This document shows positions 2,184 to 37,205 of a DNA stretch of 64,000 nt, piece by piece. A program made the position numbers and the translations under genes. The notes beneath the pieces were generated by a model, which saw nothing but the letters and a program-made list of their open reading frames with translations, did no database searches and was not told the origin of the DNA. The stretch's first letter is position 1. Each line of letters begins with the position of its first letter. The stretch comes from Gordonia jacobaea (GTDB lineage: Bacteria; Actinomycetota; Actinomycetes; Mycobacteriales; Mycobacteriaceae), in assembly GCF_001186365.1 (NCBI RefSeq), contig NZ_LDTZ01000015.1, positions 1-64,000 on the forward strand. The letters run 5' to 3'.

Positions 2184-5100
2184 TCAACGCGTGCCGGTCG
2201 CGGCTCCCCCGGCTGTTGTCCTGGTCGGCGCGCCCGCGGTTCCGACAGCTCTTGCCGACGTCGTGCGATCGCGTGAGGTTGCGGAGGACGAATCCGGCAG
2301 CCAATCCACTCTGCTCACCGCAGTCTTGGTGAACCGTCGGTACCTGCCCTCCGAGTCGCGGTACCAGACCTTTGACCCGGGTTTCGGCACACCACGAGCC
2401 GCCAGTGCGCTCGCCTGGGGGCGATAGGACTCCGATACCGGGATCTCGTCGACGACGCAGACCAGGTGAGGTCGACGGTGCGCGGGCAGTGCGCCGAGGC
2501 CGAGCCGCAGTTGCGTGACTGTCAATGAATCCACGTCGACATCGGACCGCATCGTCAGCGCGGCCACCACGATCTGGCCTCCCGGATCGCCGAGCCGGTA
2601 GGCGGCCACTTGATCGACACCGGGCACCCGCGAGAGCAGTTGCTCGATCGGCGGGAGGTAGATGGGGCCCTCGATCGAATGCGCCACGGTGTCAACCGAT
2701 CCCATGAACCACAGGTCGTCGTCGGAGTCCCGGTAGAACAGGTGACCCGACACCTCCCACCGGTCCTTGGGCGCGAAGACGTCACGCAAGACGGTCGCGG
2801 TGGTGTCGAAGCGATGCCGTGAACGCGCCAGCAGCAGCCCGACCTCGCCCTGCCCCGCACGGTCGACGAAACCGTTTTCACCGACGACGAGGCGCTCGGC
2901 GTCGACGTCGTATGCCGCGATTGCCACCTCGTTGGTTTCCGGCAGAGCGCGACCCATCGACCCGACCTTGTCGGCGGCGACGTTGGCCAGGATGGCCGAA
3001 CCGTCAGCTGTCGCGAAGAACTCGAGAACGCGGGCACGTGGGAAGCGTTCGCTTATCTCGTCCCAGAGGCCGGTGGGAAGTCCCGATCCCATGAACAAGC
3101 GGATCGGATTGTGCTCGTTGATCTGAAAGTTCTTGTCGTGCAGTATCTCTCGCAGCATCGACCAGGTGTAGGACACCACCGTGACGCCGTATCGATGAAC
3201 CTCGGTGGCGAAGTTCTCGGCGTCGACGCCCTCCGACAATGCGATACGCGACCGTCCGACGGCCGTCGCGCCGAGCGTGGTCAACAATCCGGAGGCGTGG
3301 TGCAGCGGCGGGATGCAATAGACCGTGTCGCGGTCTGTGAGACCTGCCGCCGACGCCGCTCCGAACGCCGACATCGCGAACCTGTGATTGGTCACCGGCC
3401 ACACCGCAAGTTTGCCGCGTGAGCGGGTGAACAGGATGAATGCCAGATCGCCTGCGAGACCGGGATCGGGGCGATACCACGCTGGCATCTGTACGACGTC
3501 GGGGTCGATCTGTTCCATGTCGATGACGGTGCGGCCGTCAACGCCGTCGATCTCGCGTGCCGACCCGCTTCCGCCACCGAGCACGAGGACGCGATCGCTG
3601 TGAGCTGTCGCGGTCTCGAGGTGAACGGGATCGCAGACGACGACGTTCGCGCCTGCCAGCCGCAGCATCTCGCCGACATCGCCCTCACCGGCGAGAAGTA
3701 CGGCGACCGCGCCCAACCGGGACAGTGCGGCAACCGCGACCAGCGCGCTCGGGCGGGTGTCCATCAGAACCCCGATGTGCTCGCCGGGGCGCACGCCACA
3801 CTGCACCAGTCCCGCCACCACGTTGTTGATGCGGGTGTCGACCTGCGAATGGGTGAGAACTCGATTCTCGAAGAGGAAAACCTCGCGGTCGCCGCCCCAG
3901 TCGGTGTTCTCCGACATCAGCTTTCCCAGCGAGATACGAGTACCTGACTGGATCTGTCCGAGGCGGAACAGTCGCGGCACCGTGCGGACTGATTCCTGCG
4001 CGACGGCAAGCGACGTCCGCTGCACAGCGCCCGCCATTTCCCACAGATCGCGGGACGCCCCGGCACCCGCATCGGCAACCGAACCGATGCCGTGCGTGAT
4101 CCGAGACAGCAGGCCGACGCCGGTGCCTTTCCCGTCGACCGGCGCCTCCATCGGCTCGACGTGATCGGGCTCAGGCCCCAGGTCCTCCTGCCAATTGATC
4201 CATTCCGCAGTCGTCGGCCACGTACGAGTACCCGAAGTACTTCCCACCACAAGACCGAAATGCCCTACGGGAAGCCGTGATTCGTACACGCGAGCTCGTG
4301 GTGCCGCACGGACGACACCACGGATAGCGATCGGTTGCCCGATGTCGTCGACCTCGCCGACGAAACCCAGAACGGGGGCGGTGATCTCGGCGAGCGTCAC
4401 CAGTTCGCCGTTGATCACAAACCCGCCGGACACCATGCGGTTATGTGCGACGAACTGGCGCAGCAGTTCCGCGATGGCCGGGCCGGACCAGGCGACCCAC
4501 CCTTCGGCTTCGAGGAAGCGGCGCTGATCTTCGCGGGGCAGAAGTGCGTCGCGGTCGTGGAGCTGGCGGAGGAAGTCGAAGCGGCTGCGCGCGGTCTTCA
4601 CCGGGTCGAGCATTTGGAAACCGAGACGCGCCAGCCAACTGGGCACCCACAGATGTGGAAATACCTTGTCGGCCAAGACCTCCGCGCCGGGAGCGACCAG
4701 TGCTGCGGGCAGTCCGAGCGGTAGTGCCGCGAGAACGTCGACCGGGCTACCGAAGGTGATCACGCTGGCCACCCCGCGGGAACGTCGATACGCAGCTGCC
4801 TGATAGGCGAACATGCCGCCCTGCGAGTAGCCGGCGACGTGAACATCGCGGCCGGTGGATTCGATGATCCAGTCGATCGCCTCGCTCACCGCGACGACGT
4901 GGTCGGCGAGGTTGCGCTCCATCCCGCCTTCTTCGTGATCGGGAGATCCGAAGTCGACGACCCAGGCAGTGATGCCGTTGCGGTGCAGCACAGAGACGGC
5001 ACCGTTGTGCTCGGTCACGTCATAGACGTTGGCAGACACCATCATCGGGGGAATCAGCACGATGTTGGGACCGGTCGCCGGGGCATCCGGGAAGTAGCGT

Positions 5101-31634: not shown

Positions 31635-32402
31635 ATGGGGTCCGCCGCGTTTCCGCCACAGCACTATCCGTGGGTCGCGGACACCGACTACGCCCCTCTG
31701 GAGATGCGCCACGAAGGTCGCACGCTCATGGTTGCCGTCGGTTCCAACGCATCACGCGCGGTGCTGACCACAAAGCTCGCCGATGTGGGCGGCGTCGACA
31801 TCCGTCCTGCCCGCGTCGTCGTGAGCGGTATCGCTGTCGGGTATTCCGGCCACGTGTCGGCCCGCGGATACATTCCGGCAGCTCCCTTCGCGTCCCCCGG
31901 CGCCAACACACCTCTGACGGCGTTCTGGCTCGACAACGACCAACTCGCCGCACTCGACCGCACCGAACCCAATTACCATCGATTGACAGTGACCACGACT
32001 TCTCATCCCCTGCGTGAACTCCTCGACGACGTCGACTCCGCTCCCCTCCGCTCACCGATGCCGGTGCGCGAGTTCGCCATATACGCATCACGACACGGAA
32101 TCCTCACCGATCGACGCTCGACCCCGCTCCCCTTCTCGACCCAGTCCGCAGTCCTCGCGCACCTTGCGGAAGCGCTCGACGACCCGTCGCTGGCGGAGCC
32201 GCCCGCGATCGTCTGCGCGCGACTCGGCGACACCGACGCGGGCAAGGATCTGACAGCGGGCAAGGATCTGACACGGCGCATCCAGAGCCGCGGACAGTGC
32301 CGTCCCGACGGCCTCAGCCGCGACACCGCACCCCACCATCCCGACAGCACCGCACATACCGCATTCGGTACGCACGCCGAACCCGACGATGAGATCCGAT
32401 GA
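31635..32402 (+). CDS. Hypothetical protein, possibly gamma-glutamylcyclotransferase-like
   Basis: 255 residues, no confident family. MVAVGSNASRAVLTTKL and FWLDNDQLAALDRTEPNYHRL recall the gamma-glutamylcyclotransferase fold, but this is a guess from short patterns. A six-residue unit AGKDLT occurs twice in tandem (18-bp perfect duplication at 32238-32273). After it the tail is low-complexity. Its stop overlaps the HelD start (ATGA), so the two are translated together. Confidence 0.6.
   Translation: MGSAAFPPQHYPWVADTDYAPLEMRHEGRTLMVAVGSNASRAVLTTKLADVGGVDIRPARVVVSGIAVGYSGHVSARGYIPAAPFASPGANTPLTAFWLDNDQLAALDRTEPNYHRLTVTTTSHPLRELLDDVDSAPLRSPMPVREFAIYASRHGILTDRRSTPLPFSTQSAVLAHLAEALDDPSLAEPPAIVCARLGDTDAGKDLTAGKDLTRRIQSRGQCRPDGLSRDTAPHHPDSTAHTAFGTHAEPDDEIR
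32238..32273. repeat. 18-bp perfect tandem duplication
   Basis: GCGGGCAAGGATCTGACA occurs twice, in frame, giving AGKDLT twice. Confidence 0.9.
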
Positions 32403-34738
32403 GTACCTCGCCGACACACACCGAACGCACCGATCCCCGGATCGATGAGGAACAGACACACCTCGACGCCGTGTACGGGCGTCTGGACAGGATGCGTGCC
32501 AACACCCGTCGTCGACTCGCCGCAACCCTGCGCGAGTCCGCGGGAACCCCGCAGGCGCTGTCCGAACGCGAGTCCTACGAACGCATGTACGTCGACGACC
32601 TCGCGAAATACGATGCCGCCGAACACAATCTGTATTTCGGCCGCCTCGACCTCGACGACGGCGAAACCCGGCGGATCGGACGCATCGGAGTCCTCGACGA
32701 CGATGACGGCGACACGACACTGCTTCTCGACTGGCGGGCGCCCCTGTCGCGAGCGTTCTACCTCGCAACGCCTGCAGCGCCGGAAGAGGTCGCTCGCCGC
32801 AGACACATCCGCACGCGAAATCGTGGCGTCCGTGAGGTCAACGACGAATTCCTCACCGCGGGTGAGGCTTCGATCGACGAGTCAGCGCACGGCGACGTGG
32901 TCAACGAGTCCGCGCTCGTAGCTGCCCTCAACGCCGCACGTACCGGCGAGATGACCGACATCGTCGAGACCATCCAGCGCGAGCAGGACCTCATCATCCG
33001 GTCACCGCACCGCGGCGTCACGGTCATCCAGGGCGGCCCCGGCACCGGCAAGACCGCCGTGGCGCTCCACCGCGCCGCATACTTGCTGTACACACATCGA
33101 GACATCCTCTCGCGCAGTGGAATCCTCATCATCGGCCCCAACAGCGACTTCCTCGACTACATCGGCCAGGTGCTGCCTTCGCTCGGTGAGTCCGGAGTGC
33201 TCCTCGCGACGATCGGCGAGCTCTTCCCCGGCGTCACCGCGACCGCCGACGAACCTCGACGCACCCGAGAGGTCAAGGGGCGCTTACAGATGCTCGACGT
33301 GCTCAAGCGCACGGTTCGGGCACACGAGTCGCTGCCGACCAAGCCGGTATCCGTGGACTTCGACGGTTACCGGGTCGAAATCGACAGTGCACTCGTCAAG
33401 GCAGCGCGTACGGCGGCCCGCGGGTCGCGCAGGGCGCACAACCAGGCGCAGCCGGTATTCCTGCGCTCGGCACTCGACGCACTCGCCGCCCGACACTCGG
33501 CGGCGATCGGCGCCAGTCTGCTCGACGGGTCGCAACTCCTCACGCCCGCCGACCTCAAGGACATTCGCGACGACATGGGTCGCGATCCGGATATCCGTGA
33601 GGCGGTGCTCGCCTTCTGGCCGACGCTCACTCCGACGGACGTTCTCCGCGACCTCTACGACGACCCCGCCGCCATCCGCAAGGCCACGCCGGGCTGGTCC
33701 GACGATGATCGCGCAGCGCTCCACCGGGCACGCCGCAGGCCAGTCGGCAAAGCGGAAAAGGGCAGCGAGAGCGACGAGTTCACTCCCGCCGACGTTCCGT
33801 TGCTCGACGAACTGGCCGAACTCGTCGGCTACGGCACCGATGAGGCCGAACGTGCCGAACGCGAGCGGTGGCGTCGACAACTCGCCGACGCCCAGGATGC
33901 GCTCGACATCCTCACCGGCTCGGCACCACAGGATCTCGAGGACGAACTCGACCCGGAGATCCTGATGGCCTACGACCTGATCGACGCAGAGCAACTCGCC
34001 GCGCGCCAGACCGACGTACAACGCGCGACCACCGCGGAGCGCGCCTTCAACGACCGCACCTGGACATTCGGCCACGTCATCGTCGACGAAGCCCAGGAGT
34101 TGTCCGGTATGGCGTGGCGCATGGTGATGCGCCGAATCCCGAACCGGTGGATGACCATCATCGGCGACACCGCACAGACCGGCGACCTTGCGGGCACGAC
34201 GTCGTGGAGCGAGGTACTGACACCCTACGTCGCGAACCGTTGGCAGTTGCGCGAGCTGACCGTCAACTACCGCACGCCGAGTGAGATCATGACCTACGCC
34301 GCGCGCGTCCTGGCGCACGTCGGCGATTCACTGACACCGCCGACCTCGTTGCGCAGCAACGGAATCGATCCGTATGCCCGTTCGGTGTCAACTGCCGAGC
34401 TCGTCGCGACTGCGATCGAGGAGGCCACGCGACCGGAACTGCGCGGGCTGACCGGAATCGTGGTGCCCGACAGCCTCTTCGACGCCACCTCGCAGTTGGT
34501 CGCCGGCCTCGACCCGACGACACTCGGCGTCGACGAGCTCCCCCGCGTCCACACGGTCACCACCTGTAAAGGGCTCGAGTTCGACACGACTGTCGTCGTC
34601 GAACCGAGCGCACTCATCGCTCAGTCGCCGCGCGGATACAGCGATCTCTACGTCGCGCTGACCCGCAGCACGCAGCGCCTCGTCGTGGTCAACGCCGACC
34701 CGCTGCCAACAGAGCTCGACGACATGCCGCGTCGCTGA
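32399..34738 (+). CDS. HelD-family RNA polymerase-recycling ATPase
   Basis: 779-residue superfamily 1 helicase-like ATPase. In order: an N-terminal coiled-coil arm (about 15-75), a first domain with RIGRIG and LLDWRAPLSRAFY, the Walker A GGPGTGKT (212-219), a large charged insert (about 350-520), Walker B HVIVDEAQELS, motif III IIGDTAQTGD, motif IV LTVNYRTPSEI and a final VALTRSTQRLVVV. HelD proteins bind RNA polymerase, pull stalled enzyme off DNA and recycle it. The ATG overlaps the preceding stop. Convergent with a second paralogue. Confidence 0.9.
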   Translation: MSTSPTHTERTDPRIDEEQTHLDAVYGRLDRMRANTRRRLAATLRESAGTPQALSERESYERMYVDDLAKYDAAEHNLYFGRLDLDDGETRRIGRIGVLDDDDGDTTLLLDWRAPLSRAFYLATPAAPEEVARRRHIRTRNRGVREVNDEFLTAGEASIDESAHGDVVNESALVAALNAARTGEMTDIVETIQREQDLIIRSPHRGVTVIQGGPGTGKTAVALHRAAYLLYTHRDILSRSGILIIGPNSDFLDYIGQVLPSLGESGVLLATIGELFPGVTATADEPRRTREVKGRLQMLDVLKRTVRAHESLPTKPVSVDFDGYRVEIDSALVKAARTAARGSRRAHNQAQPVFLRSALDALAARHSAAIGASLLDGSQLLTPADLKDIRDDMGRDPDIREAVLAFWPTLTPTDVLRDLYDDPAAIRKATPGWSDDDRAALHRARRRPVGKAEKGSESDEFTPADVPLLDELAELVGYGTDEAERAERERWRRQLADAQDALDILTGSAPQDLEDELDPEILMAYDLIDAEQLAARQTDVQRATTAERAFNDRTWTFGHVIVDEAQELSGMAWRMVMRRIPNRWMTIIGDTAQTGDLAGTTSWSEVLTPYVANRWQLRELTVNYRTPSEIMTYAARVLAHVGDSLTPPTSLRSNGIDPYARSVSTAELVATAIEEATRPELRGLTGIVVPDSLFDATSQLVAGLDPTTLGVDELPRVHTVTTCKGLEFDTTVVVEPSALIAQSPRGYSDLYVALTRSTQRLVVVNADPLPTELDDMPRR

Positions 34739-34758: not shown

Positions 34759-36945
34759 TCACACTCCTGATCGCTCATCCTGATCGCCCGTATGGTCGCC
34801 CTCGGGGTGCAGGATGACGAGTTCGCGGGTCGCACGAGTCATCGATACGTAGCGGTCGACGGCCCCGGTGATCCCCGAGCCGAAGACCTCGGACTCGACA
34901 ACCACGACCAGATCGAACTCGAGGCCCTTCGCAGTGATCGGATCGAGTGCGCGCACCCGGCCCGTGCTGGTGAAGTCCGGATCACCGATCACACACGCGA
35001 CGCCCTCGTCATTGCGCGCGAGCCACTCGGCGAGGATCACATCTCGGTCACCGTGCGAGGCATGTCGAACGGGCAGTCCCGATTCCCTGATCGACGACGG
35101 CACGTTGGCATCCGGTATGGCAGCTCGGATCACCGGCTCGGCCGCCTCCATGACCTCGGCGGGCGTTCGATAGTTGATCAACAACGACTCGACGCGCACG
35201 TCCCGGCATCCGACGCTGCGAAGCCGTTCCGACCACGACTCGGCGAACCCCGCCCGCGCCTGCGCCCTGTCGCCGACGATCGTGATGCTTCCGGACGGGT
35301 TGCGCCGCAGCACCATTCGCCACTGCGCCGGGGTGAGTTCCTGCGCCTCGTCGACGATGATGTGCGCGAACGGCCCGTCGAAGGTGCCGGGCTCGATGTC
35401 CGGCGCGGCCGAATCGTCGACAAGAACGTCGCGCAGGTCTTTCTGCCGAAGCATCGACATCAGGCCCTCGCCGTCGTCGTAGGTCGTCGACGCCATGAGG
35501 TCGTCGACGACGAGGTCCATACGACGGCGCTCGGCTCGCAGCGCGGCGGACCGGCGGCGACGCCGATCGTCCGCACTGCGGTCTCCCAATCGGTTGCGCG
35601 CGGCGTCGAGAAGCGGGAGGTCGGCGTCGGTCCACGCATCCGGACGCTCGCGCTGGAGCCGTCGCACGTCATCCGGCGCCAACCACGGCGCACACATTCG
35701 GAGGAACGCGGGAACCGACCACAGGTCGCCGACGAGATCCGTCGCGTCGAGCATCGGCCACGCGCGCCCCACTGCCGCCGCAAGAGAGTCGTTGCGCCGC
35801 AACGATTCCTGCACGTCGTCCAGGTCGAGGTCATCGTTGCCGATGCGTCGCCGCACCGTCTCGGCCAGGTATTGCCAGATCGCGCCGCGCGCCTCGTTGT
35901 GTGGCATGCCGGCCTCGGGCGCCGCGAATGCTTCGGCCCAATCCCGCCGCCGCAGAGTCACATCCGCCCACTCGGTCTCGACAAGAAGCGGTTCCGTCGG
36001 CGGTTCCTCGTACCACCGCACCGCCGTCTCGATCGCGTCGACCATCCCCGCCGTCGACTTCAGTGCCGCCGCCACATCGTCGGCCTCTCGCACCGCGGTA
36101 TCGCCCTCGGCGACCAGATCGCGCAACGTGCACGTCTGCACGCCTTCTTCACCGAGACTCGGCAAGACATCGGCGACATACGAGAGGTACTGCTCGTGTG
36201 GTCCGACGATCAGCAGACGTCCGCGCGTGAGCCGCGCGTCGGAGTAGAGCAGGTAAGCGGCGCGATGCAGCGCGACGACGGTCTTTCCGGTGCCGGGGCC
36301 GCCGTCGACGACCAGCGCGCCTGCCGAGTCGGCGCGGATGATGGCGTCCTGGTCGGCCTGGATCGTCGACAACACGTCACGCATGCGTGGCGAACGGCTC
36401 GCGGAGAGGCCTGCGAGCAGCGCCGAATCGCCGTCGAGCCAGACCCCATCGTCGGCGGCGTCCGCGGTGAACACTTCGTCCCAGTAGTCGGTGATCTGCC
36501 CGCGCGTCCATCGGTAGCGTCTGCGGGAACGCACGCCCATCGGCTGCGCCGCGGTCGCGTTGAAGAACGGAGCAGCGGCGGGGGTCCGCCAGTCGACGAG
36601 CAGTTGGCGGCCCGACTGATCGGTCACCCCGACGCGACCGATGTAGACGGGGTCAGGCTCGTCGATCAGCGTCATCCGGCCGATGCACAGGTCGAGGCCA
36701 TAGCGACGCAGCGTCCGCAGACGGCTGGTCAACTGATGAATCTCGAGGTCGCGATCCGATGCGCGCTGCCCACCTCCACCCTCTGCCCTGCGCGCGGCGT
36801 CGAGCCTGGCTGAGAGCGCATCGACCGTGCCGGCGAGGGATGCAGTGGTGTCCTCGAAATGGCGCACGTCGCTCTCGATACGAGTCGGGACGGATTTCGG
36901 TGACTCGGGCGGAAGATTGAAGACATGGTCGGTCACTGCGGGCAC
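34759..36945 (-). CDS. helR: HelR-type RNA polymerase-recycling ATPase (rifamycin protection)
   Basis: 728 residues with the same plan as the neighbouring HelD: N-terminal helical arm (about 20-85), RIGRVG-like IGRVGVTD, LLVDWRTPAAAPFF, Walker A GGPGTGKT (215-222), Walker B HIIVDEAQELT, VGDRAQAR, LLINYRTPAEV, and SMTRATRELVIL. The sequence and size fit HelR, which displaces rifamycin-bound RNA polymerase in Streptomyces and M. abscessus. The main support is the 21-bp RAE-like palindrome 59 bases upstream. GTG start 36945 with CGGAG 7 bases upstream. The identity as HelR rather than another HelD paralogue is inferred. Confidence 0.82.
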   Translation of the reverse strand: MPAVTDHVFNLPPESPKSVPTRIESDVRHFEDTTASLAGTVDALSARLDAARRAEGGGGQRASDRDLEIHQLTSRLRTLRRYGLDLCIGRMTLIDEPDPVYIGRVGVTDQSGRQLLVDWRTPAAAPFFNATAAQPMGVRSRRRYRWTRGQITDYWDEVFTADAADDGVWLDGDSALLAGLSASRSPRMRDVLSTIQADQDAIIRADSAGALVVDGGPGTGKTVVALHRAAYLLYSDARLTRGRLLIVGPHEQYLSYVADVLPSLGEEGVQTCTLRDLVAEGDTAVREADDVAAALKSTAGMVDAIETAVRWYEEPPTEPLLVETEWADVTLRRRDWAEAFAAPEAGMPHNEARGAIWQYLAETVRRRIGNDDLDLDDVQESLRRNDSLAAAVGRAWPMLDATDLVGDLWSVPAFLRMCAPWLAPDDVRRLQRERPDAWTDADLPLLDAARNRLGDRSADDRRRRRSAALRAERRRMDLVVDDLMASTTYDDGEGLMSMLRQKDLRDVLVDDSAAPDIEPGTFDGPFAHIIVDEAQELTPAQWRMVLRRNPSGSITIVGDRAQARAGFAESWSERLRSVGCRDVRVESLLINYRTPAEVMEAAEPVIRAAIPDANVPSSIRESGLPVRHASHGDRDVILAEWLARNDEGVACVIGDPDFTSTGRVRALDPITAKGLEFDLVVVVESEVFGSGITGAVDRYVSMTRATRELVILHPEGDHTGDQDERSGV

Positions 36946-37003
36946 TGGGCGACTCCGAAAAAGGCTGGGCGGGGGGCGGAATCACCGATTGTGCACCCGG
37001 ATG

Positions 37004-37024
37004 GGGGCCTTGCGGCAAGGCCCC
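37004..37024. promoter_or_regulatory. Rifamycin-associated element (RAE)-like palindrome
   Basis: Perfect inverted repeat with 10-bp arms, GGGGCCTTGC and GCAAGGCCCC, around a single G. As I remember it, the RAE of actinomycete rifamycin-resistance genes is a repeat of about this sequence. It sits between helR and a TATAAC -10 box on the minus strand. Confidence 0.8.
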
Positions 37025-37032
37025 TACCTCGC

Positions 37033-37040
37033 GTTATAGT
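37033..37040. promoter_or_regulatory. -10 elements beside the RAE
   Basis: Minus-strand TATAAC (37038-37033) points to helR. Overlapping plus-strand TATAGT (37035-37040) points away, with TTGCGG of the RAE 19 bases before it. I found no good -35 for the minus strand, so direction is unsettled. Confidence 0.4.
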
Positions 37041-37168
37041 GAAAAGGGCAGGGACGCAGCAGTGACCACGGCGGATCGGGAGTCACGCTCCCCACAGCAC
37101 ATCGCGACGGCTTTCATCACGACGACTTTTCATCACGGCGGCATACGTCGAACCACCAGCACACGCGC

Positions 37169-37205
37169 AACAGCTGGGCAGACGAATCCGTCTGCCCGGC
37201 TGTTG
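37169..37205. terminator. Terminator after the universal stress gene
   Basis: A 16-bp stem (AACAGC, T-G pair, GGGCAGACG, then the complementary arm) with tetraloop AATC. It lies 19 bases past the stop of the stress-protein gene. The U-tract is weak on both strands, as is usual in mycobacteria. It would also end any transcript coming rightwards from 37040. Confidence 0.7.

Follow-up and report, generated by a model that had tools for sequence, protein, structure and literature searches.

How actinobacteria sense rifamycins by way of the RAE is a question left open in the available portions of both a 2022 review (PMC10719064) and a 2026 paper (PMC12802891), and a locus of Gordonia jacobaea bears on it. 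In the window, meaning the whole 64,000-nt stretch of DNA that was analysed, a perfect palindrome stands a short way upstream of a gene for a HelD-type ATPase, and a preliminary description had read the pair as an RAE-like element in front of helR, with probable rifamycin-inducible protection of RNA polymerase. Is the palindrome an RAE, and by what means could it set the gene in response to the drug?

The gene is readily placed. It occupies 34759–36945 on the minus strand, begins at a GTG codon that follows a ribosome-binding-like GGAG (36953–36956, minus strand) after 7 nt, and encodes 728 aa. The product had been called a HelR/HelD-type ATPase, and the profile search bears this out, with a score of 1150.8 bits against NCBIfam NF041254 motor_HelR (cut-off 750) and a match that spans the full profile (1–706 of 706), as befits an RNA polymerase recycling ATPase of the HelD type. 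The NTPase motif is also present, as a Walker A sequence GGPGTGKT at residue 215. The best segment is 91% identical to G. sputi, and the nearest named relatives belong to Gordonia. By sequence, the closest solved relative is M. smegmatis HelD (PDB 6yxu), against which chain 6yxu_H gives 341.9 bits with residues 27–714 of 728 aligned. The region of the primary-channel loop, whose rifampicin-displacing position in M. smegmatis HelD was taken from the accessible text of PMC11464796, aligns near residue 485 of that protein with no large deletion and with differing residues.

The palindrome lies where it had been placed, at 37004–37024 (centre 37014, assigned to neither strand), as an exact 10-1-10 inverted repeat, GGGGCCTTGC-G-GCAAGGCCCC (21 bp; full letters GGGGCCTTGCGGCAAGGCCCC), and the gap of 59 bases to the gene is likewise exact (37004 minus 36945). 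Its letters probably match those of the published RAE, GGGGCTTGCGGCAAG. With up to three mismatches allowed, the palindrome occurs once within the 64,000 nt and not at all in 100 dinucleotide shuffles. When a slightly looser pattern was run over the whole 4.92-Mb genome, the sole match with fewer than three mismatches was again 37004–37024. At up to three mismatches the genome holds the RAE pattern in 3 places against 11 for the reversed control, with no excess, so only the exact site is meaningful. An Rfam search returned no match.

Linkage to genes offers another means of identifying the element. It was measured with a 17-base RAE pattern, the reversed pattern serving as control. Among 59 Gordonia genomes, 44 carry a total of 53 pattern sites, against 2 for the control, and every one of the 53 precedes helR (39), arr (9) or a rox-like gene (5). 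Four of the five rox sites score above the 800-bit cut-off, and the fifth (L127) is a short frame below it; this rox-like frame behind the RAE (L127:3022-4152) matches the model, 472 positions long, over roughly the first 270 only. The 48 Gordonia helR genes comprise 47 over the cut-off and one split gene (G017), which lies in two frames at G017:C18:14018-16136. Exact RAE patterns stand at 39 of these 48, and the remaining nine have the pattern with one or two mismatches. That the palindrome arose by chance, with HelR in this strain outside rifamycin control, is a reading to which we give almost no weight, because the site is the sole genome copy, stands at helR and comes with the whole module described below, and because the same RAE–helR arrangement is found in G. 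sputi, G. aichiensis and G. otitidis.

Beyond the genus the linkage holds in several gene families. At the order level, 121 genomes were scanned and 67 carry the pattern, with 99 sites in all against 13 for the reversed control. Of the 99 sites, 70 were examined, and tblastn assigned 62: 30 to helR, 18 to rox-like genes, 8 to arr, 3 to glycosyltransferase-like genes and 3 to mycobacterial-type HelD. The remaining eight comprise six at rph and two (L157 and L162) without an assigned rifamycin gene; two of the five rph frames scored are above the cut-off, and at least four are cut short by the end of their stretch. At the phylum level, 198 genomes were scanned and 20 carry the pattern, with 28 sites in all against 7 for the reversed control; 23 of the 28 were examined, the others being the source-window site and four already in the order-level set. 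Genes were assigned at 21 of these 23 sites from other orders. At L228 the RAE precedes a frame with a weak, below-cut-off UvrD-like match and the module is kept, and at L241 it precedes none of the genes searched. Assignments at these sites come from tblastn, and because many "rox" matches are only 34–45% identical and were not scored against the cut-off, they are named here rox-like monooxygenases.

The position of the element relative to helR was followed in 52 named loci, one of which (L045) ends at a contig end. The RAE lies within 400 nt of helR in 44, and in five it stands before the upstream gene of an apparent helR operon (L017, L027, L037, L046 and L047). In Actinoplanes and Virgisporangium (L017, L027, L037 and L046; about 3700–5010) the RAE is followed by a glycosyltransferase-like gene and then directly by helR, in an apparent two-gene rifamycin operon; in Plantactinospora (L047) an MFS transporter replaces the glycosyltransferase-like gene. 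No RAE was found at the helR loci of Cryobacterium (L031) and Ruania (L042). A candidate RAE-linked family of alpha/beta hydrolases (L124 and L130) was dropped, since the RAE there precedes arr and the hydrolase is divergent. A single RAE separates the divergent arr and hydrolase genes in both (L130:1918-3508 and L124:2500-4097), so the predicted antisense promoter discussed below would point at the hydrolase.

Taken as a palindrome of about 19 bp upstream of a rifamycin-resistance gene, the RAE is thus found here and recurs in other genomes, where it precedes helR, arr, rox-like and rph genes across Actinobacteria. The RAE-like reading of the preliminary description is borne out, and on linkage to rifamycin genes the 37004–37024 palindrome is identified as an RAE. 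In the source genome there was no match to arr (PF12120), the best rox score (NF033145) was 146.5 bits against a cut-off of 800, and rph (NF041857) reached 21.4 bits against 999; with a single RAE present, helR is the only RAE gene found here. There is one rpoB gene (three matched stretches of one frame), and its rifampicin region is presumably the sensitive wild type, so a change in rpoB need not be invoked, as had been anticipated.

Immediately beside helR and convergent with it lies a second HelD paralogue of 779 aa (32399–34738, plus strand), which has no RAE. It falls under the cut-offs of all four HelD/HelR models that it matches (best 668.8 against 1100 and 605.3 against 1051), and its likeness to M. 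smegmatis HelD, at 528.1 bits, exceeds that of HelR. The same convergent arrangement occurs in G. sputi, G. otitidis and G. aichiensis (91–97% identity), and the paralogue adjoins helR in at least 4 of the 59 Gordonia genomes, the source genome included. None of the 53 Gordonia pattern sites was assigned to it.

Positions beyond the edges of the palindrome proved strongly conserved as well. Sites were centred on the RAE and oriented by the gene, giving 128 non-redundant sites: a discovery set of 88 of 89 gene-oriented sites (L047 excluded), reduced to 72 by removing those at least 70% identical outside the core, and an order-level set of 62 of 70 sites, reduced to 56 by the same filter applied also against the discovery set. 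On the gene strand, offsets +21 to +26 read NANNNT at 127 of 128 sites, CANNNT at 113, CANAAT at 94 and TANNNT at none. The mirror hexamer on the opposite strand reads TANNNT at 125 of 128, that is, at 71 of 72 discovery and 54 of 56 order-level sites, against a mean of 0.06 and 0.08 sites, respectively, at other offsets. At the predicted antisense +1, 7 nt past the last T of the hexamer, G is found in 126 of 128. Antisense TANNNT holds across unrelated gene families (helR 81/83, rox-like 18/19, arr 17/17, glycosyltransferase-like 6/6, mycobacterial-type HelD 3/3). In the other orders, antisense TANNNT and the +1 G are each present at 21 of 21 gene-assigned sites, a set that was not redundancy-filtered, and the sense hexamer is never TANNNT. 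Several distant-order sites carry a sense CATAAT, as though selection had preserved a single down-mutation of a consensus −10.

On both strands 19 bp separate the −10-like hexamer from the palindrome's TTGC. The antisense letters fit the grammar of a sigma-A promoter (TTGC, a 19-bp spacer, TANNNT, 6 nt and a purine at +1), and the RAE lies in the middle of a fixed module with two sides, a weak putative sense −10 on one side and a mirrored putative antisense −10 on the other. It appears, then, to carry the overlapping −35 elements of a conserved antisense promoter and a weaker sense promoter.

Sites chosen by other means tell the same story. Among 16 helR sites that lack the exact pattern, 14 have an RAE with one or two mismatches (the other two being L031 and L042, with none). 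In each of the 14 the three antisense bases are retained together with the +1, ties among equal RAE matches having been broken in favour of the flanking letters. In a pattern-free check, loci were fetched by the helR protein or family only and sites were anchored on the inner core; from 88 loci, the loss of 3 without a usable helR start, 6 without a core and 1 below the score limit left 78. The antisense module was present in 77 of these, and in 59 of 60 after redundancy was removed. The inner core and the outer GGG/CCC arms were both conserved upstream of these protein-fetched genes, the arms almost as well as the core. At three pattern sites to which no rifamycin gene was assigned (L241, L157 and L162), TANNNT was absent at the offset in either orientation.

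In the window both hexamers fall inside 36945–37040, a feature that the preliminary description did not mention. The sense hexamer of helR, CACAAT (36988–36993, minus strand), lies 19 bp from the palindrome's TTGC, so that the −35 of this putative downstream promoter would overlap the RAE; from its position, helR transcription would be expected to start in the region 36978–36982 (minus strand), about 32–36 nt from the RAE centre. On the plus strand, TATAGT (37035–37040) also lies 19 bp from a TTGC, and the conserved offset of 7 nt past its last T leads to GG at 37047–37048, with 37047 as the predicted antisense start. A generic promoter scan, which permits spacers of 16–18 nt and requires 4 of 6 matches per hexamer, detected neither promoter.

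It is conceivable that the conserved upstream block is no antisense promoter and forms the outer half of a longer site for a regulator, or else belongs to a sense promoter. The block does show mirror symmetry, with A at offset 22 and T at offset 26, and its TATA-like letters can also be read on the sense strand; moreover, a published sense promoter, P1, starts upstream of the RAE in M. smegmatis, according to the available part of PMC10719064. On the antisense strand, however, the invariant letters fit TANNNT and a +1 G in canonical spacing, and GG at offset 33–34 is found on that strand at 116 of 128 sites and on the sense strand at none. Nor was any upstream sense TANNNT offset widely conserved, the maximum being 15 of 72 in the discovery set and no offset exceeding 6% in the order-level set. 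We consider this alternative improbable. The published upstream sense promoter and the lack of a widely conserved sense TANNNT give differing pictures.

A further sign of antisense transcription could be the termination of its product. Terminator-like hairpins with a T-rich tail were found on the antisense side of 17 of the 128 sites and on the sense side of 2, against a shuffle expectation of 3.9, and 15 of the 17 start 0–3 nt from the predicted +1. The scan itself began at the predicted +1, so earlier starts were invisible to it. When it was begun 13 nt earlier, and stems of at least 7 pairs were counted with the tail ignored, 73 antisense and 61 sense sites qualified, and the starts of the best antisense stems peaked at offsets 0–1 from the predicted +1 (18 of 73). 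Two of the predicted antisense RNAs with hairpins fold at z −5.93 and −4.63. Under the T-rich-tail rule, 111 of the 128 sites have no such hairpin, and the antisense region of the source window contains no terminator and folds no better than shuffles (z +1.20). Immediate termination would therefore be specific to certain lineages and absent from this strain. A 17-bp inverted repeat (37168–37205, 94% complementary), with the usp gene on one side and the predicted antisense start on the other, could end both transcripts, yet its T-run is short.

The chief competing explanation is the classical one, in which the RAE binds a dimeric rifamycin-responsive regulator. The antisense hexamer would then have arisen as a by-product of symmetry, or would mark a minor promoter with no part in sensing. 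The outer arms of the palindrome are near-invariant, the RAE is described as a possible transcription factor site in the accessible passages of PMC10719064 and PMC12802891, and the former, as far as its available text goes, reports that deletion of half an RAE abolishes induction. A by-product, however, would not be expected to hold TANNNT at 125 of 128 sites and G at +1 in 126, nor to leave the mirrored sense hexamer without a single TANNNT, and the terminator-like hairpins at the antisense start in some genomes also speak against it. We regard the classical account as a serious possibility that stops short of being probable. Since the outer arms are conserved beyond what sigma contacts need, a DNA-binding protein at the RAE is indicated all the same.

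The explanation that best covers the evidence overall, and that we consider modestly probable, is that helR is a rifamycin-inducible target-protection gene that the RAE would set through the balance of an antisense and a sense promoter, probably with the help of a protein. A further-reaching reading, that the RAE is more than a regulator site and serves as the shared −35 core of back-to-back promoters and that the antisense one acts as a rifamycin sensor through RNA polymerase occupancy, is put forward tentatively; from the letters of the module we infer both that the antisense promoter fires and that it senses the drug. As both −10 hexamers lie 19 bp from the palindrome's TTGC, the −35 sites would overlap and the promoters would exclude each other. 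In the absence of drug, RNA polymerase would favour the antisense promoter, helR would be kept low, and a short RNA would be made; in some genomes a terminator sited at the start of this RNA would end it. Rifamycin stops initiation at 2–3 nt. At sub-inhibitory levels it may affect the busier antisense promoter first and so shift the balance to the sense promoter, and a protein reading the outer GGG/CCC arms of the RAE probably joins in the shift. HelR would then remove rifamycin-stalled polymerase; such removal has been published for relatives of HelR, and RNA polymerase rescue by the same route would be expected in this strain. The presence of a conserved antisense promoter inside the RAE would make the question of rifamycin sensing directly testable, and the two-sided module may be a sharper signature of rifamycin-responsive genes than the palindrome alone.

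The nearest known systems are those of Streptomyces venezuelae (SVEN_6029) and Mycobacterium abscessus (MAB_3189c), which likewise have a palindrome of about 19 bp upstream of a class II HelD/HelR gene, and in which, according to the available text of PMC10719064, the −35 of the downstream promoter also overlaps the palindrome. In M. smegmatis, strong induction by rifampicin is given for MSMEG_2174 (helD), a rox homologue and arr in the accessible part of PMC6529629. The portion available of PMC10719064 maps two sense promoters there, one of them starting upstream of the RAE, and the M. smegmatis/M. abscessus description combines two sense promoters with an unknown regulator. The model proposed here has a conserved antisense promoter instead, and the RAE sites examined show no widely conserved upstream sense −10. 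The literature surveyed, which consists of partial texts outside the primary RAE and HelR papers, yielded no description of an antisense RAE promoter, and a prior description may exist.

Another point of comparison is the bidirectional promoter of E. coli, where pseudo-symmetric DNA likewise engages RNA polymerase in two exclusive orientations (PMC12825309, in the text available). Those promoters share a −10 and have starts mostly 18, and also 10 or 23, bp apart, whereas the overlap at RAE sites is at the −35 elements, with the −10 hexamers 21–26 nt to either side of the centre. The same passages state that the basal level of five tested E. coli bidirectional promoters is too weak for competition.

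The closest functional parallel is the helD/pps alarm of B. subtilis. As set out in the available sections of PMC12802891, helD, which has the weaker sense promoter, is repressed by a dominant antisense promoter whose spacer is 19 bp and whose product is a short terminated RNA, until rifampicin stalls this antisense promoter; mutation of the antisense −10 leaves helD highly active without drug, and shortening the distance between the promoters so that the polymerases clash abolishes induction. The hexamers at RAE sites, TANNNT for the antisense and CANAAT for the sense promoter, would agree with the same order of strengths. The B. subtilis promoters, however, are convergent with starts 39 bp apart, whereas the predicted RAE promoters would point away from the palindrome that they share, with about 65 bp between their predicted starts, and their polymerases would be mutually exclusive. 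Because the geometry differs and forced overlap abolished induction in B. subtilis, a pure copy of that mechanism is unlikely, and because the conserved arms argue for a protein at the RAE, we hold to a mixed model, with a model of regulator alone as its main rival. If the antisense promoter does act as a rifamycin sensor, the RAE would be an actinobacterial counterpart of the B. subtilis alarm in a different geometry, and a single principle would underlie rifampicin sensing in both Bacillus and actinobacteria.
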